In this document: positions 9,887-36,441 of the stretch, piece after piece
How positions within the stretch are numbered: the stretch's first letter is position 1
How the letters are laid out: every line of letters begins with the position of its first letter
From: a virus
IMG/VR virus record: IMGVR_UViG_3300044617_002163
Location: 1-39,583 of that record
Strand: one strand, 5' to 3'
DNA length: 39,583 nt
The notes under the pieces: model-generated
What the model saw: the letters and a program-made list of their open reading frames with translations, nothing else
The model's database searches: none
Told to the model about the DNA's origin: nothing
Position numbers and translations under genes: made by a program

Positions 9887-9892
9887 GCTTTT

Positions 9893-9968: not shown

Positions 9969-10298
9969 ACCTGAATAAAAATGAATTAAAATTAAAAAAA
10001 ATGCTTGACAGGCATACACCCCCCCCAATTTTTCGAATTTCGGGTGCGTGCAGGCCCAAAAAGCTACGGGGGGTCTTAAAAATCAGTCTCCCCTAATAAA
10101 ATACCTAAATCAAAATAATACCGATACCTAAATCAAAATACTATCTACTGAATCAAAATAATGCCTATATCACAGTAATATTGGTAATATTGGTAATATT
10201 GATAATATAAATACAAATACAAATACAAATACAACAACACAGTAATACGGTAAGCGTGTATATATTATTACATATACATACCTATAGAATTTAATCAT
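9969..10298. repeat. Gene-free, repeat-rich A/T segment with homopolymer tracts
   Basis: About 330 bp hold no gene. Features seen are a run of eight C (10019-10026), a run of six G (10068-10073), and three iteron-like copies of a CTAAATCAAAATA-type repeat (10101-10117, 10124-10140, 10146-10160, the last altered). There are also tandem GGTAATATT units (about 10175-10205) and tandem AAATAC units (about 10208-10232). This is the divergence point between the minus-strand cassettes and the plus-strand genes. Replication origin, packaging site or control region are all possible. Confidence 0.6.
10256..10260 (+). promoter_or_regulatory. GTGTA element before the 10299 operon
   Basis: GTGTA follows GGTAAGC, 38 nt before the ATG at 10299. 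It has the longest distance of the nine copies and a TATATATT downstream. Confidence 0.35.
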
Positions 10299-10451
10299 AT
10301 GGCTAAGCATGTTCCTTTATCAGAAAAAGACAAACTTGAAAAGTGGATTGGCAGGCACAATCGCAAGCTGGAGATGGTTCGTACAATTGCCAATATAATT
10401 AGTTTGATTTTAACAAGTTTTGTATTTATAAGGGTTTTTGGAATTATTTAA
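10299..10451 (+). CDS. Small membrane protein, 50 aa
   Basis: The frame reads from ATG 10299 to TAA 10449-10451. It starts MAKHVPLSEKDKLEKWIGRH, a charged helix, followed by one hydrophobic segment (IANIISLILTSFVFIRVFG) that predicts a membrane helix near the C terminus. The stop overlaps the next possible start as TAATG. It is the first of three small plus-strand genes. No family is recognised. Confidence 0.55.
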   Translation: MAKHVPLSEKDKLEKWIGRHNRKLEMVRTIANIISLILTSFVFIRVFGII

Positions 10452-10639
10452 TGATTTTTTGTTTTTGGAGGTATATGACAAATAATAAATCGAATAAATT
10501 GAATAAATTGAATAAATTGAATAGATTAAATAGATTAAATAGGTTGCAAAGGTTTTTTCTTCATTTTAAATGCATTTTTAAGAACCCGCGCGAATATAGG
10601 TTTTATTTAAAAGGTATGTGGCGCGAAATAACTAAATAA
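10451..10639 (+). CDS. Basic hypothetical protein, about 54-62 aa, with Asn-Lys-Leu repeats
   Basis: The frame may start at 10451 (62 aa, TAATG overlap) or at ATG 10475, which follows a GGAGGT at 10467-10472 with very short spacing (54 aa). The N-terminal half is a tandem LNKLNKLNRL repeat encoded by 9-bp units, forming a basic amphipathic helix. The rest is basic and aromatic (FFLHFKCIFKNPREYRFY). It may contact membrane or nucleic acid, but no family is recognised. Confidence 0.45.
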   Translation: MIFCFWRYMTNNKSNKLNKLNKLNRLNRLNRLQRFFLHFKCIFKNPREYRFYLKGMWREITK

Positions 10640-10667
10640 CTAAATAACTAAACAACTAAATAAAATT

Positions 10668-10919
10668 ATGATAAAATTTTTTACCGGGCTTATTGTTGGC
10701 GTGGCGATTGGCTTAGCAATCGGGTTTTCGCTGGCAATTGGATATTATGACGGCTATGTCGCGCGCGAATACAAGGATAAAATTATTCTGGCTTCGCAAG
10801 CCCTTAAGCGCGCCAACGAGGAGTTATTAAAAAAAGAAGAAGAAATCACTATATTAAAAATATATATAGAAAATTTGCATAAACAGCATGCCCTTTCTCC
10901 TGTTTTTGCATATAATTAA
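10668..10919 (+). CDS. Single-pass membrane protein with coiled coil, 83 aa
   Basis: The frame starts MIKFFTGLIVGVAIGLAIGF. A glycine-spaced hydrophobic segment (residues about 5-27) predicts one membrane helix with Gly contact motifs. Residues about 38-70 form a charged heptad-like helix (ALKRANEELLKKEEEITILK), likely a coiled coil. The layout resembles small phage inner-membrane proteins such as spanin subunits or exclusion proteins, but no lysis gene is adjacent. It converges with the protease gene at 10943. Confidence 0.65.
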   Translation: MIKFFTGLIVGVAIGLAIGFSLAIGYYDGYVAREYKDKIILASQALKRANEELLKKEEEITILKIYIENLHKQHALSPVFAYN

Positions 10920-10942
10920 TTTAATTAAAATTAATTACAATA

Positions 10943-13129
10943 TTAAACACACGCCTGGCAAGAACAACCGCCCCGGCAATTTGGAGGCGCGTATGTTGAA
11001 AAACTTCCATCACCAAAAGTATAATATCTACCGCTAGGATCATTTATTAAATAGGCGACAGTGTTATTATGAACGCCTTGAGCAGAACAAGCTGGTTCAT
11101 CTGGAATTGTGGTGCTCCATCCACCGAACAAGGAGCTTTCTGGTGGATACATTGTATTTAGATAATTTAATAAATTTGTATATACTGATGTATTATATGA
11201 TTCATAAAAGAATCTAGTGCCGCCATATAGATCAAATTTATGTGCGCATGGACCTATAATTTCATAAACAAGTTGAGCCGTATTCCCAGGCTGGCCGGCG
11301 CCTGGGGGGGTATATGCATATGGGGCTGATGGATTACTTTTGTCTCCAAAATTTCCTTCTTCTCCACATAATGCAGAAAGCCTATAAATTATTTGTACTC
11401 TATTTTTTGGAATAATAATTGAGCCAACTGGTTGATAATAACCACGAACCTGCCATGTTACTCCTCCATCAGTTGAATACTCTAAAAGCAATATCCATAC
11501 ATTTTTACAGCCAGGCCCGACCCCAAGTGAAAACCCTATTTGCGTATTTCCATTAACTTCTGTTACATTTAATATATTTGGAGTACAGCATGAAGGGACT
11601 GAAGGGACTGAAGGGACTGAAGGGGCTTCAGGTATCCAGTTTAGTTGAGAGCTTGCTGAAGTTGTGCCAAACTGATAATAAACTCTGCCATCAGTGTGCG
11701 TAAAAAATGGAAGGGATTGTTTGTTTCTTACAATAAGTGATCTTCCTAAAGATACTCCGTTTCTCGAAGGATTTCTAATTGGTTGACCCAAATAAGGTTT
11801 TATTTTTAATAATTTTGCAATATTGTCTATTCTCGAAACTCTGAATTCACTTGGTCCGGAGGCATATGCGGTCCCGACTATTTTCCATATATTATTGAAT
11901 CTAGCTAGCACTACAGATCCAGAGTCTCCACCTTGGATAGGTTGCGTATTTGTGCAATTTCTAAATTTAAAACTTAAATTTCCGCCAATTTGACTTATAT
12001 TATTGTTAAAAAAATTAATATTTAAAGATACATAATTTAAACTCGTGCATTCATATACGCAAGCTGGGTTTGTGAGAGTACCCAATGCATTGGCGGGATT
12101 TCCTTTGCTGCCGGTTGTTCTTCCAGCGGTAACTATATTTGGATGGACAACTCCTTCGTTTCTAAATGCGACGCCTGTCATGGAGTTTATTTCTTCAGTG
12201 GTTGCAAAAGGGTAATATATTTGATTATTTACTAGTTGGGTATTGGCAATCTTCCATGAATTTTCAGTAGATAAGATTTGAGTTCCTATATTTTGATCGG
12301 CTTGATTTGTAGCTTTAATTATTCCATTTGCCGTTTCTAAATCTAAACCTATAACGGCATTTTCAACTAAATTAAAACCAGTCAAACTTAACGGGATATA
12401 TCTTTTAAGGTACCCTATGTTTAGAGCAGACCTATAAACCCCACCTTGATGTCCGGTAACGTAATGATCAAATGTTGCTTGGTCTGTTTTACCCTGTCTT
12501 CTCATCATTTCCAAAGTAAAATCTGTTCTTTGAGATTGCTCTATTCTATAACCAGAAAAATTATAATTATCTGTTGCGGCTGAATATCTTGGATTTCCAA
12601 TTACTCTTTCGTTTGCTTGAATACTTGCAAAATTATTGGATGAATCAAATGCTGCAACGTGTCCATTTGTAATACCAACAAGAGATTCGTCAAGTTCGTC
12701 CACGGCTAAAAATCCCAATGTGCCTCTCCATCCTGCGTTGCTGTGCGTTTCCAAACTGCCTACAGGCATCGAACAAATAGATACTCCTCCTAAAACTGGT
12801 CTGCTAGGAGACCTATGCGCTCTCAGGCTAGATAAAACTGGAATTGAGTTTTGTGTATAAACGGATCCTGTTGTTTGACAACTTGAGCATAACAACTCAT
12901 CCTTGCCTTCTAAAACGTCCATTTTTATCCATCCATGACTTTCAGAGTAAAATCCTGTTGGAATTATTTCTTTTGGATCAATTTCATTTAACGGCTTTTT
13001 TTTATCTACATAAACAGTTAAACCTATTTCATCTATAAATTCACCACTTACGCTTTTTCTTTGAAGCGCTATACCGTTTATTTTTAAATTTTTATTTTTT
13101 TCTAGAAATTCTATTACTGAATCATTCAT
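10943..13129 (-). CDS. Trypsin-like serine protease with C-terminal Ig-like domain, 728 aa
   Basis: The N-terminal part (about 15-75) has GIALQRKSVSGE and EIGLTVYVDKKKPLNEI, the leader domain I know from bacterial NAL1-like S1 proteases. The protease domain follows, with GITNGHVAAFD (His157), RTDFTLEMM (candidate Asp203) and QGGDSGSVVLAR (Ser403), the order of the chymotrypsin triad. A PSVPSVPSVPS linker (about 503-513), encoded by 9-bp tandem repeats, leads to an Ig- or Fn3-like domain (FSLGVGPGCK, YSTDGGVTWQ) and a Cys-rich end (CRGGCSCQACV). No signal peptide is seen. It lies 6 nt downstream of a gene with the same Ig-like domains, so the pair is probably an operon. The product may be a virion-associated or released protease. 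Confidence 0.8.
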   Translation of the reverse strand: MNDSVIEFLEKNKNLKINGIALQRKSVSGEFIDEIGLTVYVDKKKPLNEIDPKEIIPTGFYSESHGWIKMDVLEGKDELLCSSCQTTGSVYTQNSIPVLSSLRAHRSPSRPVLGGVSICSMPVGSLETHSNAGWRGTLGFLAVDELDESLVGITNGHVAAFDSSNNFASIQANERVIGNPRYSAATDNYNFSGYRIEQSQRTDFTLEMMRRQGKTDQATFDHYVTGHQGGVYRSALNIGYLKRYIPLSLTGFNLVENAVIGLDLETANGIIKATNQADQNIGTQILSTENSWKIANTQLVNNQIYYPFATTEEINSMTGVAFRNEGVVHPNIVTAGRTTGSKGNPANALGTLTNPACVYECTSLNYVSLNINFFNNNISQIGGNLSFKFRNCTNTQPIQGGDSGSVVLARFNNIWKIVGTAYASGPSEFRVSRIDNIAKLLKIKPYLGQPIRNPSRNGVSLGRSLIVRNKQSLPFFTHTDGRVYYQFGTTSASSQLNWIPEAPSVPSVPSVPSCCTPNILNVTEVNGNTQIGFSLGVGPGCKNVWILLLEYSTDGGVTWQVRGYYQPVGSIIIPKNRVQIIYRLSALCGEEGNFGDKSNPSAPYAYTPPGAGQPGNTAQLVYEIIGPCAHKFDLYGGTRFFYESYNTSVYTNLLNYLNTMYPPESSLFGGWSTTIPDEPACSAQGVHNNTVAYLINDPSGRYYTFGDGSFSTYAPPNCRGGCSCQACV

Positions 13130-13135
13130 AAGTTT

Positions 13136-14599
13136 TTAATTTAGTGTGTATGTATATATATCAGACCATTGGCTGTTTCCATTTATACCGCACGTTGATC
13201 TTATTCTATATGATGTTGTTTGACTTGGTTTTAAAATAGTCCAAGGGGAAGTGGCGGGTCCATTTCCTCCTGCGTTCCAGGTTATTCCGCCGTCTGTAGA
13301 AGGTTCCAAAAAAGTTGTTGTTACAGGTAGGCAATCGCCGTTACCTGTTGTAAATTCTAAAACTAAAATATTTGGATCACCAAATTGAGGTGTTATATTT
13401 GTTATTTGTGGCTTACAGCAAACAACAACACCGGGGGGTATTGGCGAATTTACGTCATACATTACTATATTTGAATATTCGCTTGGTTGGTAAGGAGTGT
13501 ATACTAATTTCATTCTAATATACGTATTTACCGAAGGAAGAGTGAATGTTGATGGTGATATAGATGGCGCAGAGAATGAATTCCAGTTTATTAAGTCGGT
13601 TGAAGTTTCAAAAAAAGCAAGTACTGGAGTATGACATTCATTGCTTAATGTTGTAAATGTTACGCTTATAGAATTATTTCCACTTCTCAATACAGATGTA
13701 ATAAAAGGGGTACAGCTTTTTGATGGTCTTGGTTCTGGCAACGCTGATTCATTTGGATCGAATGCGACTATATTTGAAAATTGACCAAGTTCAGAATTAA
13801 AATTAAATAAAACCTTATAATACGTTTTATTGATTGGTTTTGTAAGGATTCTTGGTGAATTCCATCCCGCTGTATTACCGGTCCCCCAATTTATTTGGTT
13901 TTCAGAAGAAAAAACGGTAAGAGCGGTTGGATCTGCACATCCCTCCCCTAGTCTTACAAAATTTAAGGCAATTTCAGATTCATTTATTTGCTCTATAGAA
14001 GTTATAAATGGTGGGCATTGATATTCATTTGATTTATGCCAGTCGGGTTTTCCATTTACAGATTTTAAATCAAAAACGCCATTGTAGTCTGGGATATTTA
14101 ATTCTTCTAGGTTTGAAAATTGATTATTTATTGTTAATTTTGGCGTACTTAGTTTACCGTATATAAATGATCTAGTCCAATTAGTTGCCAAATCAGGTGT
14201 TCTTACATCTGAAAATGATATATATTGATACGGTGGTACGTCTATTACATCACCTGGTTGTAATATAAATCCATTTACTTCTATTACTGAAGTTGCATCT
14301 GACGGATGTTGAAATCGCGGTCCTCCGTGAAAAGAAAGTATCCAACATTCAAAATTTTTATCCCAGTTTAAAGTTGTTTTATAGACCGCACCCCCTAGAT
14401 TAATTTCTTTTTTAAAGGATGGTCTTCCGCTTACTGATTTTTGTTCAATAGTATACTCTCCATTTATAAAATTTACAACACCGATTGATTCAGCTGGCTC
14501 TCCGGCGTCTTGAATAGTAAGATTTCTTATATTGGCAAAATCATTGTAGCCCACAGAAGACAATCCTAATTTTTTATTTTTAATTTTTAATGAATTCAT
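13136..14599 (-). CDS. Multi-domain Ig/Fn3-like surface protein, 487 aa
   Basis: The N-terminal half carries two blocks with the pattern N-G-x-Y/F-x5-SV-x-G-x-P (FINGEYTIEQKSVSGRP, then YNGVFDLKSVNGKPDW). The C-terminal half has three similar domains of about 90 residues, each starting with C-x-P-x-I-T (CPPFITSIEQ, CTPFITSVLR, CCKPQITNIT) and containing paired cysteines and an E/S-T-D-x3-W turn. The last domain closely resembles the C-terminal domain of the neighbouring protease. It is likely a carbohydrate- or protein-binding virion decoration acting with the protease. A GTGTA element lies 16 nt before the ATG. Confidence 0.7.
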   Translation of the reverse strand: MNSLKIKNKKLGLSSVGYNDFANIRNLTIQDAGEPAESIGVVNFINGEYTIEQKSVSGRPSFKKEINLGGAVYKTTLNWDKNFECWILSFHGGPRFQHPSDATSVIEVNGFILQPGDVIDVPPYQYISFSDVRTPDLATNWTRSFIYGKLSTPKLTINNQFSNLEELNIPDYNGVFDLKSVNGKPDWHKSNEYQCPPFITSIEQINESEIALNFVRLGEGCADPTALTVFSSENQINWGTGNTAGWNSPRILTKPINKTYYKVLFNFNSELGQFSNIVAFDPNESALPEPRPSKSCTPFITSVLRSGNNSISVTFTTLSNECHTPVLAFFETSTDLINWNSFSAPSISPSTFTLPSVNTYIRMKLVYTPYQPSEYSNIVMYDVNSPIPPGVVVCCKPQITNITPQFGDPNILVLEFTTGNGDCLPVTTTFLEPSTDGGITWNAGGNGPATSPWTILKPSQTTSYRIRSTCGINGNSQWSDIYTYTLN

Positions 14600-14615
14600 T
14601 TTTTACAGTAAATAA

Positions 14616-14620
14616 TACAC
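14616..14620 (-). promoter_or_regulatory. GTGTA element before the Ig-like/protease operon
   Basis: TTTAAGTGTATTATT on the minus strand, ending 16 nt before the ATG at 14599. It sits in the divergent gap opposite the PhoH promoter. Confidence 0.5.
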
Positions 14621-14679
14621 TTAAAACAAAATGGTAGGATTGTTTTTTTAAAAAAATAAAAATCTTCAAAAGGCTGATG

Positions 14680-14685
14680 TATAAT
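14680..14685 (+). promoter_or_regulatory. TATAAT box before phoH
   Basis: GATGTATAAT, a consensus -10 box also resembling the GTGTA element (GATGTATA), lies 11 nt before the ATG at 14697. No clear -35 is seen. Confidence 0.45.
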
Positions 14686-14696
14686 TTAATAGAATT

Positions 14697-15461
14697 ATGT
14701 CAAACGAAAAAAATAAAAAAGACAATCAGGTTTCATTAAAAAGCAAAGACAATTCACCTTTTATAACGCAAAGACCTAAAATTAGTTTTGAACTAAACAT
14801 AAAATCTAGAAACGATCTTACTGAAAAGCAAAAGAAAATACTTGAAGTTTCCTTTGAAAAAAATACAAAATGTATTTTTATAGATGGTCTTTATGGAACC
14901 TCAAAATCGTATATGAGTGTTTTGGCGGCTCTGAATCTTCTTAATAATAAAAAAATAGACGAAATTATTTTTATAAGAAATCCAGTTGAATCATCTACTA
15001 CAGGTAAAATTGGGTTTATACCAGGAACAAGTGAAGAAAAAATGGCTCCGTATAATGCAATTCTATTTGACAAGCTTGAAGAAATGCTACCGGAACATGA
15101 TATACAAAAACTAAAAAAAGATAACAGGATAAACTGTTATCCAGTTGGTTTTGTTAGAGGTAGATCATGGAATTGCAAGGCAATCATAGTTGATGAGGCT
15201 TCTTCAATGTCGTGGGATGATTTATTTTTAATAATGACTAGGTGCGGTGAATTTAGTAAAATATTTTTTATAGGAGACTCTGTCAATCAAAATGACATAG
15301 GTTCAAAATCTGGTTTTAAAAAAATGTTTAACCTATTTAATGACGAAGAAAGTCGTCGGTTCGGTATACATTGTTTTGAATTAAAAGAATATTCAGATAT
15401 AGTAAGATCTGGGCTCTTAAGATTTGTGATGGAAAAAGCCGGTTTGATTAAAAAAAATTAA
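14697..15461 (+). CDS. phoH: PhoH-like P-loop ATPase
   Basis: A protein of 254 residues. LTEKQKKILE near residue 41 is the usual lead-in. The P loop is GLYGTSKS (64-71), a variant of GPAGTGKT with Ser for the second Gly. IRNPVE near 93 and GFIPGTSEEKMAPY near 106 are family motifs; KAIIVDEASS (161-170) is Walker B, and FFIGDSVNQNDI near 188 is the sensor region. PhoH proteins are ATPases with helicase-like features that are common in phages, where their role is unsettled. The stop shares bases with that of the opposing metallopeptidase. The variant P loop means ATPase activity is not certain. Confidence 0.93.
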   Translation: MSNEKNKKDNQVSLKSKDNSPFITQRPKISFELNIKSRNDLTEKQKKILEVSFEKNTKCIFIDGLYGTSKSYMSVLAALNLLNNKKIDEIIFIRNPVESSTTGKIGFIPGTSEEKMAPYNAILFDKLEEMLPEHDIQKLKKDNRINCYPVGFVRGRSWNCKAIIVDEASSMSWDDLFLIMTRCGEFSKIFFIGDSVNQNDIGSKSGFKKMFNLFNDEESRRFGIHCFELKEYSDIVRSGLLRFVMEKAGLIKKN

Positions 15462-16111
15462 GTTGATGTTTCTCGACTATTTTCAAAAATATAAAAAATC
15501 TTTCTTGGTATATTTGATATATCAAAATAATGTCTACTATTTTTAAGTTTGGATATTTTAAATTCTAGAGGTTTTAAATTAATACCTTTTGATTTGTCAA
15601 TAAAATTTGGCCAGTGCCCGGTTTCTGCCCAAAAACAGTATTTATATAATACCAAATTAGATGTTGAAGAATATTCTGTTTTATTTACGGGTAAATTAAA
15701 TTTTTTGATAAATCTTAATGCCTTTTTATCTGCGTCAAGTTCCATAGGAATAATGCATCTGGCAAGTTTTTTTCTTAGAGATTTTTTAATTTTAGAATTT
15801 TTTATAAAAATTTCTTCTATATTGTCTATTCTAGAAGCTGTTTTTTGAAAATTTAACCACATTTTTTGTTTGTTTTTTGCTTGCAGAAAATGACCAAATT
15901 CATGAGCCAGTACTCCGACCCAATAAAAAGAACCGTGATTTACTGCGCATTTTATTGTCATTGTTGTTTCGCAAAATTCGCCATCTGTTTTTTTACTTTT
16001 AGGAAACGCATTAATACTTAATACTAGTTTTCCTTTTATTTTTTTTAATTCGCTTCTTACATATTCAATGAATATTTTTACTTTTTCATTTTTAATAGAT
16101 GAATTTTTCAT
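15458..16111 (-). CDS. HEFGH zinc metallopeptidase (gluzincin-like)
   Basis: A protein of 217 residues starting MKNSSIKNEKVKIFIEYVRS. VGVLAHEFGHFLQ (residues 66-77) contains HExxH with His70, Glu71 and His74. About 50 residues later MELDADKKAL supplies a likely third ligand (Glu124 or Asp128), as in ImmA/IrrE- or SprT-like peptidases. No signal peptide is present, so it should act in the cytoplasm. Possible targets are a host repressor or a phage structural precursor. It is the only minus-strand gene between phoH and the late genes, with its own GTGTA element, and it overlaps the phoH stop by 4 nt. Confidence 0.8.
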   Translation of the reverse strand: MKNSSIKNEKVKIFIEYVRSELKKIKGKLVLSINAFPKSKKTDGEFCETTMTIKCAVNHGSFYWVGVLAHEFGHFLQAKNKQKMWLNFQKTASRIDNIEEIFIKNSKIKKSLRKKLARCIIPMELDADKKALRFIKKFNLPVNKTEYSSTSNLVLYKYCFWAETGHWPNFIDKSKGINLKPLEFKISKLKNSRHYFDISNIPRKIFYIFENSRETST

Positions 16112-16123
16112 TACAATTAAATT

Positions 16124-16128
16124 TACAC
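16124..16128 (-). promoter_or_regulatory. GTGTA element before the metallopeptidase
   Basis: TAATAAGTGTAAATTT on the minus strand, 12 nt before the ATG at 16111. It faces away from the copy at 16163, so one 80-bp gap carries two divergent copies. Confidence 0.5.
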
Positions 16129-16162
16129 TTATTAATTACCGTTTATTAAATTAGATAAAGTA

Positions 16163-16167
16163 GTGTA
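16163..16167 (+). promoter_or_regulatory. GTGTA element before the late operon
   Basis: GATAAAGTAGTGTAATTAAA, 26 nt before the ATG at 16194, the first gene of the plus-strand run that includes the sigma factor and terminase. Confidence 0.5.
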
Positions 16168-16193
16168 ATTAAAATATAATTAATTATATTTAT

Positions 16194-16679
16194 ATGAAAT
16201 ATTATTGTCCAAAATGCTTTTATAAAAACGAATATAAATTCAAAAAACCAGAAAAATGTGAAAAATGCGGATTTGTGTTTGCGGCAGCTTCAAAAATTGA
16301 AATAAAGAAAGAATCGCAAGAATCAATAAGAAGAGCGGAACTTGAAAAACGAATTGCACGCGCGGAAAAATTTATTCAAGAAAGTGAAAAAAACGAAGAA
16401 GATGATGATTTTATTGAAGATGAAAGCGATGAAGATGAAAATGAATATTCTTTAAATTGGAGGGAAAATATTGCTAAATTGTCTAGAAATCCTGGTATAA
16501 AGTTAGATTATATTAAATCTAACTCTATATCTCTTGCTGATGCGGTCGCTAATAGCAATAGCTCAAATGTTTTTCCTGATATAAAAAGATCTCCGGTTGA
16601 TAAAAAAAATAACAAGGAGATTTTGGAAGAATTGAAAAAAGAAGCTTCTAGTCATTCTGATACTTTTGAAATAAATTAA
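16194..16679 (+). CDS. Zinc-ribbon protein with acidic helical region, 161 aa
   Basis: The N terminus has four cysteines as CPKC (5-8) and CEKC (22-25), a rubredoxin-like zinc ribbon. A charged helical segment (ESIRRAELEKRIARAEKFIQ) and a very acidic stretch (EDDDFIEDESDEDENE) follow. The C-terminal part is unrecognised. It lies 11 nt before the sigma factor gene. A zinc ribbon beside a phage sigma factor suggests a partner in late transcription, as the gp33 co-activator is for T4 gp55, but this is only a positional analogy. Confidence 0.7.
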   Translation: MKYYCPKCFYKNEYKFKKPEKCEKCGFVFAAASKIEIKKESQESIRRAELEKRIARAEKFIQESEKNEEDDDFIEDESDEDENEYSLNWRENIAKLSRNPGIKLDYIKSNSISLADAVANSNSSNVFPDIKRSPVDKKNNKEILEELKKEASSHSDTFEIN

Positions 16680-16690
16680 TTTCTATATTT

Positions 16691-17401
16691 ATGGATTATA
16701 AAAAATCTTCATTTGAAGACTGTATTGACGTAATTAACCAAGAACTTTTAAAAAGAAAATCTAAGTGGAGACTAAATGCAATAGCATGGATGGATTTTGA
16801 TGACGTTTGCCAAAAAATAAGATTGCATATATTTAATAAATGGGATCAATGGGATCAAGATAGACCTTTGGTACCTTGGGTTAATCGAATAATAACAAAT
16901 CAAATGACTAATTTAGTCAGAAATAATTATTCTTCGTTTTCTAGACCATGCTCACAGTGTCAATATAATCAAGGCGGAGATTTATGTGAGCTTTATGGAA
17001 CGCAATGTTCCGATTGTCCAATTTTTGCAAAGTGGGAAAAATCAAAAAAGAATGCGCACGATATAAAAATACCTCTTAGTATTAATGATCCTTGCTTTTC
17101 TTTTAACAATAATTTTAACGATAATGATTTTAAATCTATAGATATTAAAGACAACTATTCTTATGTAAATTATGATGAAAAAATATCCAAAATCCATACA
17201 TGCATGAAAGAGAAACTAACGACAGTGGAATGGAAGATTTATAATTTTCTTTTTATAGAAAATAAAACAGATGTTGAAACAGCTAAGTTGATGGGTTACA
17301 AAACAAACGAAAAAAATCGTTCTCCAGGTTATAAACAAATTAAAAAAGTAAAAAATAAAATTTATCAAGTTGCCAAAGAAATTGCAAAAGACATTTTATG
17401 A
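16691..17401 (+). CDS. Phage RNA polymerase sigma factor with inserted cysteine cluster
   Basis: A protein of 236 residues. MDFDDVCQKIRLHIFNKWD (34-52), then DRPLVPWVNRIITNQMTN (57-74) and LVRNN, match sigma-70 region 2, which binds core polymerase and the -10 element. CSQCQYNQGGDLC and QCSDCP (Cys 87, 90, 99, 106, 109) follow directly, a likely zinc site not found in ordinary sigma factors. KLTTVEWKIYNFLFIENKTD and TAKLMGYK near the C terminus fit a region-4-like helix-turn-helix. It is the best candidate for a late sigma factor reading the GTGTA elements. Its stop overlaps the next start (ATGA). Confidence 0.8.
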   Translation: MDYKKSSFEDCIDVINQELLKRKSKWRLNAIAWMDFDDVCQKIRLHIFNKWDQWDQDRPLVPWVNRIITNQMTNLVRNNYSSFSRPCSQCQYNQGGDLCELYGTQCSDCPIFAKWEKSKKNAHDIKIPLSINDPCFSFNNNFNDNDFKSIDIKDNYSYVNYDEKISKIHTCMKEKLTTVEWKIYNFLFIENKTDVETAKLMGYKTNEKNRSPGYKQIKKVKNKIYQVAKEIAKDIL

Positions 17402-18555: not shown

Positions 18556-18557
18556 CA

Positions 18558-19487: not shown

Positions 19488-19490
19488 AAT

Positions 19491-21422
19491 ATGTGGGAAA
19501 TAGGAAATCAAGAAATAATAATTCCTGAAAAGCATATAAATCAAGAGCTTTTGAATTTAAAGGGTGAAATTGATGATGCTACGGCTAGAATAACTCTAGC
19601 TAAATTTTTACGTCATAATCTTGCTCTTACTGTTGAGCTTTTTTTGGGTATCAAACTTGAAAAATATCAAGAGATAACATTAAAAGGGTTTTTTAATAGA
19701 AACTTCAGTATGTTAACATGGGGTAGAGGTGCAGCTAAAACTTTCTGTGCGGCTGTTTTTTGTATACTTCAATGTATTTTTGAACCTGGCACAAAAATAT
19801 TGATAGCTTCAGCAAATTTTAGAACATCTCGACGTTTATTTATGGAGATTGATAAAATGTTAAATGCAAAAGATGCAGGTCTTGCAAAACAATGTTTTAA
19901 AGACCCAATAAAAAGAAATGATGAATATGTTTATCCTGTACAACTTCCTCATGGCGGATCAATAACCGCAATTCCTCTTGGTGGTGAAAATACAAGAGGC
20001 TATCGTGCATCTGTTCTTGTTATAGATGAGTTTTTACTAATGCCGAAAGATATAGTTGAAAGAGTTTTGATGCCATTTATGTCGTCGCCCCTTGATGTAG
20101 CTGAAAGGATTAAAGTCAGAGAAGTGGAAGACGAAATGATTCGCGCTGGAAAAATGAAGGAAAGCGAAAGAGTTGTTTTTAAAAACATGAACAAAATGAT
20201 CACATTGAGTTCTGCAAGTTATACTTTTGAATATCTTTTTGAATTATATTCGATTTGGTCCGATATTATTAGAGACCCTAAATTGCTTTCTGACGCCGAG
20301 AAAATAGGCGAAGACAGAATGGAGGCAATGAAAAATTCGACTTATTTTGTTTCGCAATTGTCATATGAATCTCTTCCAGAGCATATGATAGATCAGGGTG
20401 TTATACAGTTAGCAAAAAGTGGTGGAATTAGTCATTCGGCTTTTTTGAGAGAGTATTGTGCTAGATTTGTTGATGGCGGGGATGGTTACTACTCACCTAA
20501 AAAAATGAATTTGTGTACGGTTCCAAATGGTCAATATCCAACTACAAAGATAGTTGGTGATAAGGATAAAAAATATGTTCTCGCCGTAGATCCTAGCTTT
20601 AGTTCTTCTAAAAGCTCTGATTATTTTGCTATGGCTATTTTAGAATTAAACGAGGAAGATAAAACTTCAACTTATGTTCATGGTTATCAAAAGGCTGGCG
20701 GCAGCATACAAGATCATATAAAATATTTATATTATGTAATGACTCATTTTAATATCGTGATGATTATAATAGATAACGCTGGCGGTGATCAATTTATTGA
20801 AGCGGCGAATGGTTCAGCTATTTTTAAATCAAAAAATATGAAAATAGGTTTTTTTGAATTCAATTCTGACAGCGAGGGAGAAGAATATATAGAAATGTTG
20901 AAAAATTCTAAAATCCAGTATAATAGAGATACTGGAAATATATGCTTTAAACAATATTTTACGTCTGCATTTATAGGTAGAGCTAATGGATATTTGCAAA
21001 GCTGTATAGACCATAAAAAAATATGGTTTGCCAGCGCCTCATGCGCGCATCCCGATATTATAAATCATATGTTTAACTTAAATATACCAATAGATTACAT
21101 ATTCCCAAAAGGGATAGACGATGCGCCGGAAGACGCAATAGAAAGAGCCAAGCTAGGAGTAAGAGATTTCATGGAACAACAGGATTTTATAATAAAAGAC
21201 ACAAAAGATCAATGTGCATTAATACAGGTTTCATCTACAGCAAGAGGAACGCAAAGCTTTGATCTTCCCTCTCATTTGAGAAGGTTAACAACTGCAAACA
21301 AGCCGAGAAAAGATAATTATTCGGCATTGATGCTTGGTAATTGGGCGTCGAAAGTGTATTTTGACTTAAATTCCGATAAAGCTGAAATACCAAAATATAA
21401 TTTTACTCCTTTTTTTCTTTAA
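19491..21422 (+). CDS. terL: Terminase large subunit
   Basis: A protein of 643 residues. The ATPase domain has Walker A GRGAAKT (78-84), a GRGxxKT variant, then LIASANFRTSRRLF near 104, SVLVIDEF (174-181) as Walker B, and ITLSSASY near 237 as the coupling motif. The nuclease domain has YVLAVDPSFSSSKSSDYF (362-379, Asp367) and VMIIIDNAGGD near 430, the usual RNase H-like acidic residues. TerL powers DNA into the prohead and cuts the concatemer. It precedes the portal gene as in most tailed phages. No intein or frameshift is seen. Confidence 0.97.
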   Translation: MWEIGNQEIIIPEKHINQELLNLKGEIDDATARITLAKFLRHNLALTVELFLGIKLEKYQEITLKGFFNRNFSMLTWGRGAAKTFCAAVFCILQCIFEPGTKILIASANFRTSRRLFMEIDKMLNAKDAGLAKQCFKDPIKRNDEYVYPVQLPHGGSITAIPLGGENTRGYRASVLVIDEFLLMPKDIVERVLMPFMSSPLDVAERIKVREVEDEMIRAGKMKESERVVFKNMNKMITLSSASYTFEYLFELYSIWSDIIRDPKLLSDAEKIGEDRMEAMKNSTYFVSQLSYESLPEHMIDQGVIQLAKSGGISHSAFLREYCARFVDGGDGYYSPKKMNLCTVPNGQYPTTKIVGDKDKKYVLAVDPSFSSSKSSDYFAMAILELNEEDKTSTYVHGYQKAGGSIQDHIKYLYYVMTHFNIVMIIIDNAGGDQFIEAANGSAIFKSKNMKIGFFEFNSDSEGEEYIEMLKNSKIQYNRDTGNICFKQYFTSAFIGRANGYLQSCIDHKKIWFASASCAHPDIINHMFNLNIPIDYIFPKGIDDAPEDAIERAKLGVRDFMEQQDFIIKDTKDQCALIQVSSTARGTQSFDLPSHLRRLTTANKPRKDNYSALMLGNWASKVYFDLNSDKAEIPKYNFTPFFL

Positions 21423-21425
21423 AAA

Positions 21426-21430
21426 GTGTA
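21426..21430 (+). promoter_or_regulatory. GTGTA element before the portal gene
   Basis: CTTTAAAAAGTGTAAAAG, overlapping the region just after the terL stop and 23 nt before the portal ATG. Confidence 0.5.
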
Positions 21431-21453
21431 AAAGAATTTAATAATTAATTAAA

Positions 21454-23466: not shown

Positions 23467-23471
23467 ATTTT

Positions 23472-25541: not shown

Positions 25542-25556
25542 TAAATATTAAAAACT

Positions 25557-25561
25557 GTGTA
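25557..25561 (+). promoter_or_regulatory. GTGTA element before the 101-aa gene
   Basis: ATTAAAAACTGTGTAATC, exactly 11 nt before the ATG at 25573; the copies at 28231 and 33425 have the same spacing. Confidence 0.5.
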
Positions 25562-25572
25562 ATCATTACAAT

Positions 25573-25878: not shown

Positions 25879-25886
25879 TTTTGCGC

Positions 25887-27788: not shown

Positions 27789-27794
27789 ATAAAA

Positions 27795-28211
27795 ATGAAT
27801 AATACTCAATCTTATGCTATTTTAGATATAAACGGAAAAGTTATTAACTTTTGCCTGTGGGATGGCGATTTAAATAATTGGCAACCACCTGAAAATACAA
27901 CTGCTATATTAACAAGTGAACTTCCAGAGAATTGGCAAAGTGTTAATTCTGTGACAGAAAAATTATTTTCAGCAGAGGAGTGGTTAAATGCTCAAGGTTA
28001 TTCTTCAATAAGATTAGTTACTCTTTTAGACTTAGAAAATAAATTAAAAGAATTAAATAAGTCAAGTCAAAAACTTACAGATATTAGAACTTGGATAGAT
28101 TTTATTTTATTGTCGTTTATTCAAAATAATGAACCAAAGAACGATTGGCAGCCCGCTCCCCATCTTTTTGAAGATACGGTTCAAGATGTTTTTAATGTTT
28201 TAAATAGTTAA
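27795..28211 (+). CDS. Fibre-associated protein, 138 aa, possible chaperone
   Basis: The N terminus (SYAILDINGKVINFCLWDGD, then WQPPENTTAI) matches the short domain seen in many small phage tail-associated proteins, where x-Y-A-x-x-D/N-x-x-x-x-V-x-N is followed by V/L-W-D-G and W-x-P-P. The C-terminal half is helical (TLLDLENKLKELNKSSQKLT). It lies 6 nt downstream of the glycine-rich adhesin, where fibre-assembly chaperones are usually encoded; the chaperone role is inferred from position. Confidence 0.65.
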   Translation: MNNTQSYAILDINGKVINFCLWDGDLNNWQPPENTTAILTSELPENWQSVNSVTEKLFSAEEWLNAQGYSSIRLVTLLDLENKLKELNKSSQKLTDIRTWIDFILLSFIQNNEPKNDWQPAPHLFEDTVQDVFNVLNS

Positions 28212-28230
28212 AAAGTTTTTTTTATAAAAA

Positions 28231-28235
28231 GTGTA
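28231..28235 (+). promoter_or_regulatory. GTGTA element before the lysis genes
   Basis: TTTATAAAAAGTGTATAT, exactly 11 nt before the ATG at 28247. Confidence 0.5.
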
Positions 28236-28246
28236 TATATTTATAT

Positions 28247-28915
28247 ATGAAAAAAAAATATATTTACTTTGCGTTAATTTCTGTTTTATTTTTAACTTCC
28301 TGCGCGGTTTATACTGAAAAAAGAAGCCAAGCTCTTTCACGCGCAGTTGCGGCTACAGCAGACTCTATTGAGGCTGCTCGCTTTGACCTTGCTTCAAAAT
28401 ATTCTAAAGAAGCAGAAAAAATAGCTTATCCTCCAAAAGAAAGAATAATAGTTCGCCCGATAATTACAAAAAATACAAAAAGCCTTGAGATAAAAAATAC
28501 AAAAAGTGATGCAACTTTAAATGGTAAAAAAACAAACTTGAATACAAGTATTGTTAAAATAACTGCTTCTAATAACGATGAAGAAACGGTCTTAAGATTG
28601 GTAGTTCCAGAAAACCTTAAGCATGCTAAACTATTGATAGAAAATTCGGATGAATGGCTTGAATTGTTGAAGACAAAAAGCTTTGCCGAACAGTTGGCTA
28701 AAGATAATAAAAATCTTAAAGATTTGGTTGATGAAGTAAATGCTGAACTTTTAAAACAACAAGAAATAAACAGCCAACTTATAAAAGATTTAAATAAATT
28801 GCAAAAAGAAGTTATTGAAAAACGCTTGCATATTTTAAAATTATATATTGCAATAGCTATATTGATTGCAGTTATCGGCGGCGCAACATATTTGAGAATA
28901 AAAGGTATTTTATGA
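28247..28915 (+). CDS. Candidate unimolecular spanin (lipoprotein with C-terminal membrane helix)
   Basis: A protein of 222 residues. The N terminus MKKKYIYFALISVLFLTSCA is a lipoprotein signal with Cys19. The mature part has an Ala-rich helix (SRAVAATADSIEAARFDLAS), a middle domain and a coiled-coil-like region (KDLVDEVNAELLKQQEINSQ). The C terminus carries a membrane segment (ILKLYIAIAILIAVIGGATY). An outer-membrane lipid anchor at one end and an inner-membrane helix at the other is the topology of u-spanins such as T1 Gp11, which fuse the two membranes in the last step of lysis. The adjoining holin-like and endolysin genes support this. Confidence 0.8.
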   Translation: MKKKYIYFALISVLFLTSCAVYTEKRSQALSRAVAATADSIEAARFDLASKYSKEAEKIAYPPKERIIVRPIITKNTKSLEIKNTKSDATLNGKKTNLNTSIVKITASNNDEETVLRLVVPENLKHAKLLIENSDEWLELLKTKSFAEQLAKDNKNLKDLVDEVNAELLKQQEINSQLIKDLNKLQKEVIEKRLHILKLYIAIAILIAVIGGATYLRIKGIL

Positions 28916-28916
28916 T

Positions 28917-29345
28917 ATGTGGGAAAGAATTGTAGAAATAGCAAAAACTGCAAGTGCAATGCTTCATAGCGGGCAAGTTCCGCCGAATACGCCTCCTTTA
29001 TATAAAAATGATTTAAGTAAAGTAAATTTTCTTGCTTCGAAAAAATTTTATGTTGTTTTTTGTTCAGTTATTATTCTTGCAATATTTTATGCGGCTAGTA
29101 TTTTTGTTTTATTTTTAACGGCAGCGTCACCAAATTTAACAGTTCCTTTTGTTAGTATTTTTACAGAAACAATAAAAATATTAGCGGTTATAATAGCTAG
29201 TTATTTAGGTGTTCAAACTATACTTGATTATAAAATGCAGTCCAATTCCAATATAGATCTTCGTGGCGAAAATAATTTTAATTATGATGAAGAAGTTACT
29301 TATATTGTAACAAATGCAAAAGAAGAAGATTATGAAATTGAATAA
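28917..29345 (+). CDS. Candidate holin, 142 aa, two membrane segments
   Basis: The start follows the spanin stop by one nucleotide. After a polar N terminus come two hydrophobic segments (VVFCSVIILAIFYAASIFVL, residues about 43-62, and IFTETIKILAVIIASYLGVQ, about 80-99) and a charged tail. Size, two membrane helices and position between spanin and endolysin suit a holin, which forms the inner-membrane hole at lysis time. No sequence family is recognised. Its end overlaps the endolysin start. Confidence 0.7.
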   Translation: MWERIVEIAKTASAMLHSGQVPPNTPPLYKNDLSKVNFLASKKFYVVFCSVIILAIFYAASIFVLFLTAASPNLTVPFVSIFTETIKILAVIIASYLGVQTILDYKMQSNSNIDLRGENNFNYDEEVTYIVTNAKEEDYEIE

Positions 29346-29949
29346 ATTATCAAAAGATGCTTATAATTTAATTCTTAAATATGAAGTTGGTGGTGGCAGG
29401 AATTATTATGAAAAATTTCTTTCAAAGTTTACCTGGCCTGGGGGAGCATCAGGTCCAACAATCGCTATAGGAATAGATTGCGCGTATTATAAACCAGAAG
29501 AGTTAAGAAATATATTTAATTTTTTGCAAGCAAAAGAAATAGAAATGATTTGTGGCGCGAGTGGAAAAACTGGAGAAGCTGGAAAGGAATACACAAAACA
29601 ATTAAGAAAAGCGGGTATAATTGTTGGTTGGAATGAAGCTGTTAATATTTTTGAAAATACAACTTGGTTAAAGTTTTCAATGCTCTCTGAAAAAACATTT
29701 CCAGGATTACGGGATCTTTGTGATAATGCTTATGGTGCAATTGTTTCAATAGTATTTAATCGCGGATCTAGTTTAAAAGGCGATTCCAGGCTTGAAATGA
29801 GAAATATAAAAAGATTAATCGCTGAAAAAAAATATAAAAATATAGCTAGTGAAATACGTAAAATGAAAAGGCTTTGGATTGGAAAAGGATTAGATGGTCT
29901 TTTAGAACGTCGTGAGGCAGAGGCAAATTTAGTAGAAACTTGTTATTAA
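29332..29949 (+). CDS. Endolysin (lysozyme-like muramidase), 205 aa
   Basis: I place the start at ATG 29332 (MKLNKLSKDAYNLILKYEVG), overlapping the holin by 14 nt; an in-frame ATG at 29314 would add six residues. LKYEVGGGRNYY with Glu18, then FTWPGGASGPTIAIGIDCAY (residues 33-52), match a widespread phage endolysin family with E-V/T-G/S...YY...P-x-W-P-G-G-x-S-G-x-T-I-G-x-G. Glu18 is the likely catalytic acid. It would cut peptidoglycan glycan strands. No signal peptide is seen, so release would need the holin. Confidence 0.9.
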   Translation: MKLNKLSKDAYNLILKYEVGGGRNYYEKFLSKFTWPGGASGPTIAIGIDCAYYKPEELRNIFNFLQAKEIEMICGASGKTGEAGKEYTKQLRKAGIIVGWNEAVNIFENTTWLKFSMLSEKTFPGLRDLCDNAYGAIVSIVFNRGSSLKGDSRLEMRNIKRLIAEKKYKNIASEIRKMKRLWIGKGLDGLLERREAEANLVETCY

Positions 29950-29985
29950 AAATAAATAAAAATTTGCGACATATTTTATAGCTTT

Positions 29986-29990
29986 GTGTA
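29986..29990 (+). promoter_or_regulatory. GTGTA element before the head genes
   Basis: ATAGCTTTGTGTAGATG, 24 nt before the ATG at 30015, with ATATAATATAA following. It would drive the protease, decoration and capsid genes up to the terminator at 33366. Confidence 0.5.
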
Positions 29991-30014
29991 GATGAGATAT
30001 AATATAAATTACAT

Positions 30015-31610
30015 ATGCCAAAGTTTGAAAGTTCATACATTTTGCTAAGTGAAGAATATATACCATCTATGAAAAAGAAATTTCCATTTGAAACATCGTT
30101 TGCATCAGAACCAGTAAAAATATTTTCTCCATCAAATGAAGATATTTATTTAGCGAAGGCTGGTATAGACTCTCTCAAACCTTTTTTAGATTCCTCTATA
30201 GATTTAGAAAAAAATTACGATCTTATAGGCGTAGCCTTTAATGCTTTTGTAGTTAATAGAGTTAATAAGAATGATCAGGTTATTTCCACCGAGAGTGCTT
30301 TGGCGGCGGTTGAAAATTTTAAGTTCAAACCAATGAATATTGAACATAAAAGAAAAGAAGTGGTAGGTATGATAACTGGTTATGGATTTAGTGAGTTTGG
30401 TACAGACAAACCTTTGACAGTTGAAGAAGTTAAAGATAAAAAAGAACCTTTTAATGTTGTGCTTAGTGGGTTTGTTTGGAGAGTTGTTGATTCAGAATTT
30501 GCTGATAAATTGGAGGATTCATCGGACCCTTCTTCTTTAAATTACTTAAGTGTTTCAACAAGCTGGGAAATGGGCTTTAAAGATTTTTCTATAGCTAAAG
30601 GTGGTAAAAATTTAAATGAGGCGGAAATAATTTCAAATCAAGAAGATGTAGATTCTTTGAAAGCAAAACTAGCTCACTTCGGAGGAGATGGAAAAGACTC
30701 AAATGGTGATAGAATTTATTTGAATTTAATAGGTGAAGTTTTGCCGCTTGGAATAGGCTTTACTATGCGCCCTGCCGCAGATGTAAAAGGAGTAAAGGTT
30801 GCTGGTTCTAAAGATTTAATTGAATTAAATAATCACGAAGTTGAAATTGATAGTTCCCATCTTGAAGAAAATGATGTAAAAAACAACATATCAGCAAATT
30901 CAGTAAAAGATACTGATTTTAACGAAATAAATAAATCAAATAAAAAAGATATGATTATAAAATCCATAAACGATCTAACCGATGATTCATTGAAGCAAAT
31001 CGCTGCTTCTGATATCAAATCTCTATTCGAAGAAGAAATAAAAAAAGCCAGCGAAAAATTTTCTCAAGAAAAAGAAGAAAAAGATAAAGCTTTTGCCGAG
31101 GTCGAAAACTCTAAAAAAGAAATTGAGACAAAGTTGGCTGAAATTACTGAGCTTAGTCAGAATTTACAAAATCAATTGGATCAGTTAAAATCAGAAGCTG
31201 CTGCCAAAGCAAAAGAAGAGCTTTTCCAAAACAGAATGGCTGGTCTTGATGAAGAATTTGAACTCGAAGCCGAAGAGCGCGAGATCGTTGGAGAACAAAT
31301 AAAAGATCTTGATGAAGAAGGTTTTGAAAAATGGTATAAAGCATTTAATGTTTTTGCAAAAGGCAAAAATAAAAAAATGAAAATGGCTTACCAAGAAAAA
31401 TCAGAAAAAACTGAAGAAAAAGAAATGAAGGCTTCTGAAGAAGAAATCAAAAAAGAGGCTGAAGAAGCTGCAGCTAAAGCACTTGAAACCGCTAAGGCTT
31501 CAGATGACAATCTTCCAAACGCAAGTTCTTCAAATGAATTATCAATCAGAGATAAATTTGCAAAAGCTTTCAACAATGAAACCGTAAAAGTACAGGTTTA
31601 TAAAATTTAA
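30015..31610 (+). CDS. Prohead protease fused to scaffold, 531 aa
   Basis: The N-terminal half is a phage head maturation protease: FKFKPMNIEHKRKEVVGMIT (103-122) carries the likely catalytic His111, VVLSGFVWRVV follows near 148, and LNYLSVSTSWE (176-185) carries the candidate nucleophilic Ser (about 179). The C-terminal half is a long charged coiled coil (KEKDKAFAEVENSKKEIETK; EITELSQNLQNQLDQL) ending before a short segment, typical of a scaffold that is cleaved and expelled. The fusion of protease and scaffold in one frame is common in HK97-fold phages. It starts the head operon, 19 nt before the decoration gene. Confidence 0.88.
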   Translation: MPKFESSYILLSEEYIPSMKKKFPFETSFASEPVKIFSPSNEDIYLAKAGIDSLKPFLDSSIDLEKNYDLIGVAFNAFVVNRVNKNDQVISTESALAAVENFKFKPMNIEHKRKEVVGMITGYGFSEFGTDKPLTVEEVKDKKEPFNVVLSGFVWRVVDSEFADKLEDSSDPSSLNYLSVSTSWEMGFKDFSIAKGGKNLNEAEIISNQEDVDSLKAKLAHFGGDGKDSNGDRIYLNLIGEVLPLGIGFTMRPAADVKGVKVAGSKDLIELNNHEVEIDSSHLEENDVKNNISANSVKDTDFNEINKSNKKDMIIKSINDLTDDSLKQIAASDIKSLFEEEIKKASEKFSQEKEEKDKAFAEVENSKKEIETKLAEITELSQNLQNQLDQLKSEAAAKAKEELFQNRMAGLDEEFELEAEEREIVGEQIKDLDEEGFEKWYKAFNVFAKGKNKKMKMAYQEKSEKTEEKEMKASEEEIKKEAEEAAAKALETAKASDDNLPNASSSNELSIRDKFAKAFNNETVKVQVYKI

Positions 31611-31628
31611 CAATTAAAATATAAAAAT

Positions 31629-32162
31629 ATGACAATTAGACCATTTAGAGATTATAGTGAGCACGAGGTTGTAAACCTTTTTGCTCTTCAAGGCGAAGGA
31701 AACAAGGGAACTTTCGTTACCGCTGTTGGTAATGGATTTTCATTTGATACCCCTTCTAATTTTGAGGATGATAGCTTTATAAACGGCTCTGTATCCGCAA
31801 GATTTACTGTTGCGCAAAAAGTCACCGCCGCCCCTTCAGGAACTCACCCAGCTCTTGTTTTAGGCATGACTTTAAAAGATGTTAAATATAGGGATGAAAA
31901 TGGTTATCCATTAAAATTTGATCCTAAAAAAGCAGCAGAACGCGACCTTGTTATAAGCGGTGAAGCTGTCCCTGTAGTTAAGAGAGGTCTTTTCTTATAC
32001 GACGGTATTTCTGGAACACCTGGTTTTGGAAGCGGTCTTGCCGTATCTGATGCCGGAGACGGATCACTTAAAGTTGTTGCTCCTGGTCACTCACATGCAG
32101 TTGCTAGAGCTTTAGGTCCAAAAGACGCTAATGGTTATACATTAATAGAAATTAAACTTTAA
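31629..32162 (+). CDS. Capsid decoration protein, 177 aa
   Basis: The frame starts MTIRPFRDYSEHEVVNLFAL. The segment LQGEGNKGTFVTAV near residue 20, then PALVLGMTLKDVKYRDENGY near 74 and DLVISGEAVPVVKRGLFLYD, suggest a beta-rich head protein. Position between protease-scaffold and major capsid protein is typical for decoration (stabilisation) proteins that bind the capsid after expansion. The family is inferred from position, size and this pattern. Confidence 0.72.
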   Translation: MTIRPFRDYSEHEVVNLFALQGEGNKGTFVTAVGNGFSFDTPSNFEDDSFINGSVSARFTVAQKVTAAPSGTHPALVLGMTLKDVKYRDENGYPLKFDPKKAAERDLVISGEAVPVVKRGLFLYDGISGTPGFGSGLAVSDAGDGSLKVVAPGHSHAVARALGPKDANGYTLIEIKL

Positions 32163-32222
32163 TTAAAAAATTAAAAAAAACAAAAACAATAAACAAAATT
32201 TATAAAATAGAAAAATAAAATT

Positions 32223-33341
32223 ATGAAAATCAAATTTGAAAAAACACCAGAACAAGTAGAGTTAGTAAAAGCCATGGGTTCTAGCAACAAGGTTGATGCC
32301 TTGGAAGCTCAGGACGCATTCGCAGCTTTTATTTCGCCTGTTATCCAAGAAGTTCTTCTTCAAGCCGGTACAGCACCAGCTATTTATGAAGATATGACAT
32401 ATAATGAAGATGATTCTCCTTCTATTCCTGTAGACCTTTACTACGGTGAAACAGAAGGAACATTTTCTGTTTGGCAGCAAACAGTTGCCGGTGGTCTTCC
32501 AACCCAACAAATTGGAACATTCCAAGAAATCAAAGTTTCAACATATCCACTCGATTCTGCTATCAGCTTCGACAAGCGTTATGTTCGCAAATGCCGTTTG
32601 GATGTTGTAGCAAGAGGTCTTGAGAGACTTTCTAACGATGTTCTTATCAAGCAAGAAAGAAATGCATGGTATGTTGTTCTTAAAATGCTTGCTGACGCAA
32701 TCACACAAGGAAAGAGACACGTTTTCAGATCAAATGTAAACAATGAGTTTCAAGTTGACGATATCAACAAAGCAATGACTCTTTTAAAGAGAATCAATGC
32801 TGCTTACAATGGTGCTACACCTGTTGGCAATGAAGGTCGCGGATTAACAGATCTTTATGTTTCTCCTGAAATTATGGAGCAAGTTAGAGGATTTGCATAC
32901 AACCCTGTAAATACAAAACAAGCCGTTGGCGGAACAACATCAATTCCTATGACCGATTCTGTTCGCGATAGAATCTACAATGCCGCTGGCATGTCTGATA
33001 TCTGGGGTGTTACGCTTCATGAACTACTCGAACTCGGCGTTGGTCGCAAATACAACGTTCTATTTGACCAGATAGCTGGAGCTACATTATATACAAAAGC
33101 CGACGGAACATCTGGTTCTGCAGCTTTTGATGGAGCTAGCGATGAGGTTCTTATTGGTGTTGATCGCTCACGCAGATCATTCATCAGAACACTTGCTGTT
33201 AATGCCGAAACAGGCGGAAGCTTTACATTAAAACCAGACGATCAATTCCTTGCTCGCTCTGGAAAAGTTGGATTCTACGGTGGTCTTGAAGAAGGTCGCG
33301 TTGGACTTGATGCCAAAGCTGTCGCCGGAATTATCGTATAA
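32223..33341 (+). CDS. Major capsid protein (HK97 fold), 372 aa
   Basis: The frame starts MKIKFEKTPEQVELVKAMGS. GSNKVDALEAQDAFAAFISP near residue 18, a long E-loop-like segment (TYPLDSAISFDKRYVRKCRL near 104), and the helical core with NAWYVVLKMLADAI near 146 suit an HK97-type capsid protein. The C-terminal part ends EGRVGLDAKAVAGIIV. It is the last gene of the head operon and is followed by a strong terminator, as expected for a very highly expressed gene. Its codon choice is also visibly less A/T-biased than that of its neighbours (more C-ending codons). Confidence 0.88.
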   Translation: MKIKFEKTPEQVELVKAMGSSNKVDALEAQDAFAAFISPVIQEVLLQAGTAPAIYEDMTYNEDDSPSIPVDLYYGETEGTFSVWQQTVAGGLPTQQIGTFQEIKVSTYPLDSAISFDKRYVRKCRLDVVARGLERLSNDVLIKQERNAWYVVLKMLADAITQGKRHVFRSNVNNEFQVDDINKAMTLLKRINAAYNGATPVGNEGRGLTDLYVSPEIMEQVRGFAYNPVNTKQAVGGTTSIPMTDSVRDRIYNAAGMSDIWGVTLHELLELGVGRKYNVLFDQIAGATLYTKADGTSGSAAFDGASDEVLIGVDRSRRSFIRTLAVNAETGGSFTLKPDDQFLARSGKVGFYGGLEEGRVGLDAKAVAGIIV

Positions 33342-33365
33342 TAGACTAGTTATAAAGTCTTTAGA

Positions 33366-33396
33366 AAAACCCCGAATAAAATTCGGGGTTTTTTTA
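33366..33396 (+). terminator. Rho-independent terminator after the capsid gene
   Basis: AACCCCGAA pairs perfectly with TTCGGGGTT around a TAAAA loop (33368-33390), followed by a T run. Confidence 0.95.
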
Positions 33397-33424
33397 TTTA
33401 TATAATCAATTTTGCGTTTAAAAT

Positions 33425-33429
33425 GTGTA
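33425..33429 (+). promoter_or_regulatory. GTGTA element before the lipoprotein gene
   Basis: CGTTTAAAATGTGTAAGCC, exactly 11 nt before the ATG at 33441 and just beyond a strong terminator, so some promoter is needed here. Confidence 0.55.
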
Positions 33430-36422: not shown

Positions 36423-36441
36423 TATAAATACTATGAAGTTA

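Follow-up and report, generated by a model that had tools for sequence, protein, structure and literature searches.

In phage T4, late promoters consist of a single box in the −10 position with no −35 box, precede virion genes and are read by the phage sigma factor gp55 on the host RNA polymerase core, and late transcription also uses gp33 and the sliding clamp. Promoters of the ECF sigma factors normally carry both −35 and −10 boxes. In phiEco32, host sigma70 promoters serve the early genes, and the phage sigma factor gp36, which is reported to be without region 4, works on the host core at promoters before middle and late gene clusters, where it uses a single box, tAATGTAtA, with transcription starting 6–8 bp downstream (PMC8948821). 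Phage 7-11 gp47 is a phage sigma with region 4 that acts, on the host core, at bipartite GTAAtg-16-aCTA late promoters (PMC8948821). Searching the literature for a published phage promoter of the GTGTA, GTGTAAT or AGTGTA type, we found nothing relevant; here we describe a GTGTA box in a large lineage of uncultured phages from lakes and oceans and compare it with these systems.

The DNA analysed (the window) is a viral contig from IMG/VR, 39,583 bases long and probably fragmentary, in which genes were called throughout as simple ATG open reading frames (ORFs). It comprises two arms: bases 1–10,200 (early arm; 40–48% G+C) hold small genes, mainly on the minus strand, and two tRNA genes, and bases 10,200–39,583 (late arm; 27–39% G+C) hold packaging, head, tail and fibre genes. 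A first-pass annotation had proposed that GTGTA precedes nine transcription-unit starts as a candidate phage-specific promoter. All nine boxes lie where it had placed them (Table 1), the distances to the ATG are 11–38 nt and exactly 11 nt in three cases, as it had given, and the terminator that it had reported ahead of the 33441 box is real. Candidate unit starts at 14697, 32223, 34803 and 36528 are without an exact GTGTA box. The divergent boxes between 16111− and 16194+ face, on the plus strand, an operon headed by 16194+ that also holds the genes of a sigma-like protein, ORF 385, a nuclease-like ORF and the terminase.

Table 1 GTGTA boxes and associated features of the window (distances run from the end of the box to the ATG; fractions are relatives with a box).
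Feature	Position	Strand	Remarks
TTGAC, −35-like	852..856	−	43 nt before ATG of early-arm gene 813−
TTGACA-17-TAAATT, sigma70-like promoter	3564..3592	−	early-arm gene 3553−
GTGTA box	10256..10260	+	ORF 10299 (membrane-type, 50 aa) at 38 nt; the weakest box of the nine
GTGTA box	14616..14620	−	gene 14599− (487 aa, function unassigned) at 16 nt, in operon with 13129−
GTGTA box	16124..16128	−	gene 16111− (217 aa) at 12 nt; paired divergently with the 16163..16167 box; 17/35, at 11 nt in 13 of those 17
GTGTA box	16163..16167	+	gene 16194+ at 26 nt
Sigma-like protein, 236 aa	16691..17401	+	Sigma70 region 2, residues 33–79; region-4-like helical C-terminal domain (predicted)
Terminase large subunit	19491..21422	+	last gene of the sigma operon; own box in 1/105
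GTGTA box	21426..21430	+	gene 21454+ (portal position, 670 aa) at 23 nt
GTGTA box	25557..25561	+	gene 25573+ (101 aa; in the tail fibre region) at 11 nt; 18/23
GTGTA box	28231..28235	+	gene 28247+ (222 aa, lipoprotein-like; possibly lysis cluster) at 11 nt; 8/13, at 9 nt in 7
GTGTA box	29986..29990	+	gene 30015+ (531 aa; probably in the head cluster) at 24 nt; 9/10
Intrinsic terminator	33362..33396	+	16-pair stem and T run; closes the unit before 33441
GTGTA box	33425..33429	+	gene 33441+ at 11 nt; box directly after the terminator
Strong intrinsic terminator	36441..36475		precedes leucine-rich-repeat protein gene 36528

The word proved strongly enriched over shuffled upstream sequence: 9 of the 28 late-arm upstream regions (785 nt) carry GTGTA against 0.57 expected, and 2000 dinucleotide shuffles of these regions gave a maximum count of 5. 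GTGTA ranked first of the 1024 pentamers upstream of late-arm genes, with an approximate Poisson p of 1.3e-8; across 200 sets of shuffled upstream regions no pentamer reached a p below 4e-5, likewise approximate. The genome-wide count that the first-pass annotation had suggested gave 30 occurrences in the whole window against 43.9 expected. Inside late genes, GTGTA and its complement TACAC occur 14 times on both strands, against 36.3 expected when synonymous codons are shuffled, and form the most avoided pentamer pair in late-arm coding sequence (rank 1 of 393). As proof, such avoidance of cryptic promoters was rejected, and we treat the deficit as supportive only, because in long relatives the pair ranks only 22 of 512, with palindromic words (CCWGG, GGWCC) outranking it. 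As a separate observation, the genes of the long relatives G001, G002, G005, G006, G009 and G010 and of the late arm of the window are markedly depleted of words of the CCWGG, GGWCC and CTNAG types (ratios of 0.37–0.68), which suggests restriction pressure in the host.

The same box was recovered across relatives of the window. GTGTA is the top upstream pentamer in each of three clades, occurring in 60/229, 115/248 and 90/181 regions against 7, 11 and 10 expected, and the extended word GTGTAAT was counted 52 and 57 times in two of them, against 1.3 and 1.5 expected; the contigs behind these counts are redundant, strict correction being applied only to the site and distance profiles and to a set of 727 upstream regions with similar sequences removed. 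In that set GTGTA was found 192 times against 10 expected. None of its single-mismatch variants rose clearly above chance, GTGTC and GTGTT reaching p values of about 0.02, uncorrected, and ATGTA being seen 34 times against 30.2 expected; with the variants at or near chance, we rejected degenerate versions of the box, which is close to all-or-none. As a method control, the same pipeline recovered TATAAATA in T4, without GTGTA, and it returned no GTGTA enrichment in the phiEco32 genome. A second conserved element near GTGTA was sought in the site profiles, and none was found: neither a −35 box nor a TAAAA partner is present there, and the TAAAA-like stretch that the first-pass annotation had described reduces to general A/T richness on both sides.

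The box is placed with respect to both the ATG and the transcription unit. It lies on the sense strand and mostly ends 9–13 nt before the ATG and rarely nearer than 9 nt; longer distances, trailing off at about 50 nt, also occur. The claim that it marks unit starts and is absent between packed genes held across relatives, where it precedes 5 of 586 operon-internal genes and 336 of the 1039 genes that follow a gap (51/127 after gaps of 9–24 nt and 285/912 after gaps of at least 25 nt). Orthologues of the sigma gene, ORF 385, ORF 309 and the terminase large subunit gene, all of which lie inside one operon, have a box in 1 case out of 442, and the portal-position gene directly after that operon has one in 65 of 72. 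In the window, a box is found upstream of 33441, and 33830 follows that gene; in relatives the 33830 orthologue has the box in front of it (12/12), and because of this shift we conclude that the box tracks the unit start rather than the gene. Genes with the box at 9–13 nt carry the Shine–Dalgarno word AGGA in 0.6% of cases versus 15.5% for internal genes, a scarcity that leaderless or near-leaderless mRNA would predict.

GTGTA is one of two classes of candidate promoter. Among the genes of the window and of six long records, GTGTA precedes 96, TTGAC precedes 73 and both words precede 2 (Fisher test, 2.8e-6). The second class consists of TTGAC, a 17-nt spacer and a weak TAnnnT, and often starts exactly 35 nt before the ATG, as if the transcript began at the ATG; with this spacing as a ruler, a GTGTA box ending 9 nt before the ATG would occupy roughly −14 to −10. 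The left arm of the window uses the TTGAC class, not GTGTA. In the late arm, between 20000 and 39583, sigma70-like promoter matches are at chance (69 versus 75.7 expected). One such match, TAGATA-17-TATAAT at 16152–16180, overlaps the GTGTA box at 16163 and could start off the sigma operon, although it is a consensus match only, of a kind common by chance. The functions of the units point to late timing for the GTGTA class: in record G002, GTGTA-led units encode the terminase, the tape measure and tail- or decoration-like proteins, and units without GTGTA encode DNA polymerase, DnaB helicase, ribonucleotide reductase, a clamp loader and rIIA.

The early arm has further repeated features of its own. 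Its promoters (window 813–8818, minus strand) share an A-tract followed by CCTTGAC or CCTTGCA and belong to repeat families D3, D10, D11 and D14, and ATAAAATTGAATTAAAAAT occurs in the spacer of several of them. Nine copies of the GC-rich sequence CTTAGCGGGCCC[TA]GGGCCCCGTAAGTCGTTGA, whose core GGGCCCNGGGCCC is palindromic, lie between early-arm genes (window 390–9000; at about 396, 905, 3170, 4456, 5226, 6293, 7112, 7976 and 8946) and are possible terminator, processing or replication elements. For the host there is one weak pointer, since the only match to the sigma gene among GTDB genomes comes from one contig of a Flavobacteriales MAG, where mis-binning is possible; the TTGAC-17-TAnnnT early promoters appear unlike the Bacteroidetes consensus.

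The likely reader of the box is the 236-aa protein, which by its sequence and predicted structure is a sigma-type protein with an ECF-like fold. Pfam PF04542 (Sigma70 region 2) scores above cut-off in the window protein and at E ≤ 0.01 in 26 of 26 aligned relatives. Pfam gave no match to region 4, which is thus present as a predicted fold only, and no PHROG or PDB sequence matched the protein below an E value of 0.001. The AlphaFold model (mean pLDDT 74.7, pTM 0.39) is confident for the two domains and not for the linker, and among the 50 matches listed in a PDB structure comparison there were only sigma factors and sigma-containing complexes: predicted residues 160–236 superpose on sigmaE region 4 (Z 9.6, 2.4 Å) and the predicted region 2 on ShbA region 2 (Z 8.0, 2.6 Å). 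A region-4-like domain is predicted even though GTGTA is accompanied by no conserved −35 box. Between the domains stand four cysteines (residues 87, 90, 99 and 109; window 16949–17017), invariant in all aligned relatives and possibly forming a zinc site. In two relatives a second Sigma70 region 2 protein is encoded besides the lineage sigma (G003:C1:74631-74840 and G004:C1:38760-38966).

We also looked for a polymerase encoded by the phages. No Rpb1-type RNA polymerase was detected in 6 records, in a search that found its 14 positive controls, and no T7-type enzyme (PF00940) in the window and 8 records, which are possibly incomplete, with the T7 control detected. On the basis of these records, a phage RNA polymerase of either the multi-subunit or the T7 type was rejected as the reader of GTGTA, and the host core is the likely partner of the sigma-like protein.

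The sigma-like gene has relatives on at least 572 IMG/VR contigs, of which a narrower scan gave 375, and 50,697 phage records contained none; the lineage sigma is without a recognizable relative in cultured phages. The terminase shows 22–27% identity to those of cultured phages over about half its length. All closely examined members of the lineage carry both the sigma gene and the box, and even the deepest members seen (terminase identity about 38%) have the box 9–10 nt before structural genes. PhoH relatives, meant as a sigma-free control, nearly all turned out to carry the sigma gene too.

The placement of the box, its conservation in the lineage, its exclusion of sigma70-type promoters, the 9-nt minimum distance and the accompanying sigma-like protein all support the candidate phage-specific late promoter of the first-pass annotation. 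From sequence comparison, we consider it probable that GTGTA is a single-box late promoter read by the 236-aa sigma of the lineage on the host core. GTGTA, extended as GTGTA[AT][AT] and often as AGTGTAAT, would be the single core element of these promoters and would lie at about −14 to −10 from the transcription start, in the place of a −10 box, so that at the closest sites the mRNA would begin at the ATG or a few bases before it. Early and replication genes would be transcribed by the host primary sigma from TTGAC-17-TAnnnT promoters. The phage sigma, made from a GTGTA-led operon, would then accumulate and direct the host core to the boxes, its region 2 reading the single box as phiEco32 gp36 does, and virion, packaging and probably lysis genes would be switched on. 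In the window, the sigma's own operon would also be switched on by the phage sigma; across relatives, an automatic walk-back found a box before 33 of 109 sigma operons, so either such autoregulation may not be general or the walk-back may miss starts. Besides this low fraction, points against the reading are the candidate unit starts with no exact box, the second Sigma70 region 2 protein of two relatives and the prediction of a region-4-like domain where no −35 box is conserved.

The strongest competing account keeps GTGTA as the late promoter core and has it read by the host polymerase with a host sigma and some other phage activator or co-activator. Co-activators are common in phage late switches, T4 gp33 and the clamp being examples, and the clamp loader of G002 and the second sigma-like protein of two relatives would fit. 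We nevertheless regard this account as unlikely: a box that most often ends 9–13 nt before the ATG occupies the contact place of sigma region 2 and is too close for an activator box at −30, sigma70-like matches in the late arm do not exceed chance, and the sigma gene is present throughout the lineage.

Were GTGTA instead an mRNA element in the 5′ leader acting in translation start or stability, its regular short distance to the ATG and its sense-strand orientation would be expected. Operon-internal genes need translation signals too, yet they almost always do without the box (5/586; 1/442 among the sigma-operon orthologues), and on this absence we rejected a translation signal; distances reaching 50 nt, the gene-by-gene exclusion of GTGTA and TTGAC, and avoidance of the word on both strands inside late genes also make an mRNA element very improbable. 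We give the least credence to an operator or other DNA-binding site (for a repressor, nucleoid protein or methylation). The box is directional, not palindromic, it keeps a sharp minimum distance to the ATG, and with no second promoter element beside it nothing else is left as the late promoter, although a fixed word that tolerates hardly any mismatch does resemble a modification or tight binding site.

If GTGTA is read as a promoter by the 236-aa sigma, five fixed bases and one protein would amount to a highly compact switch for gene expression and a clear-cut test of the extent to which region 2 of a sigma factor can by itself define a promoter. The box lets putative early and late genes be mapped from the sequence itself in hundreds of uncultured phage genomes. 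The wider proposition, to which we give even odds, is that this abundant lineage of fresh and marine waters has reduced its late promoter to a nearly invariant pentamer, makes many leaderless late mRNAs and uses a sigma of a new subfamily, in which four cysteines between regions 2 and 4 form an insert that probably binds zinc.

Compared with known systems, the lineage differs from T7-type phages in that the window and 8 records, possibly incomplete, yielded no single-subunit phage RNA polymerase. With phage 7-11, whose sigma has region 4, it shares a phage sigma (here with a predicted region-4-like domain), probable use of the host core and putative late targets, but promoters there are bipartite and here there is no second box. 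The ECF sigma factors sigmaE, CnrH and SigW resemble the 236-aa protein in region 2 sequence (a weak CnrH match) and in the predicted fold of regions 2 and 4, and differ from it in the four invariant cysteines between its domains. The T4 late promoter, to which the first-pass annotation had likened GTGTA, holds as a looser analogue and not as the nearest parallel: the box is unrelated, and in the three clades GTGTA words, not TATAAATA-type words, lead the enrichment. phiEco32 gp36 is closer: both systems have a TGTA core, neither has a −35 box and their spacing agrees, and an ATG at least 9 nt after GTGTA would be compatible with a phiEco32-like start 6–8 bp after the box. The pentamer's first base differs, however (ATGTA there, GTGTA here), so that the consensus tAATGTAtA is not matched; gp36 does not align with the sigma-like protein (hhalign probability 0.1%), which has in addition a predicted region-4-like domain and the four-cysteine insert. 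The GTGTA system would thus work like the phiEco32 system and is not a member of it.
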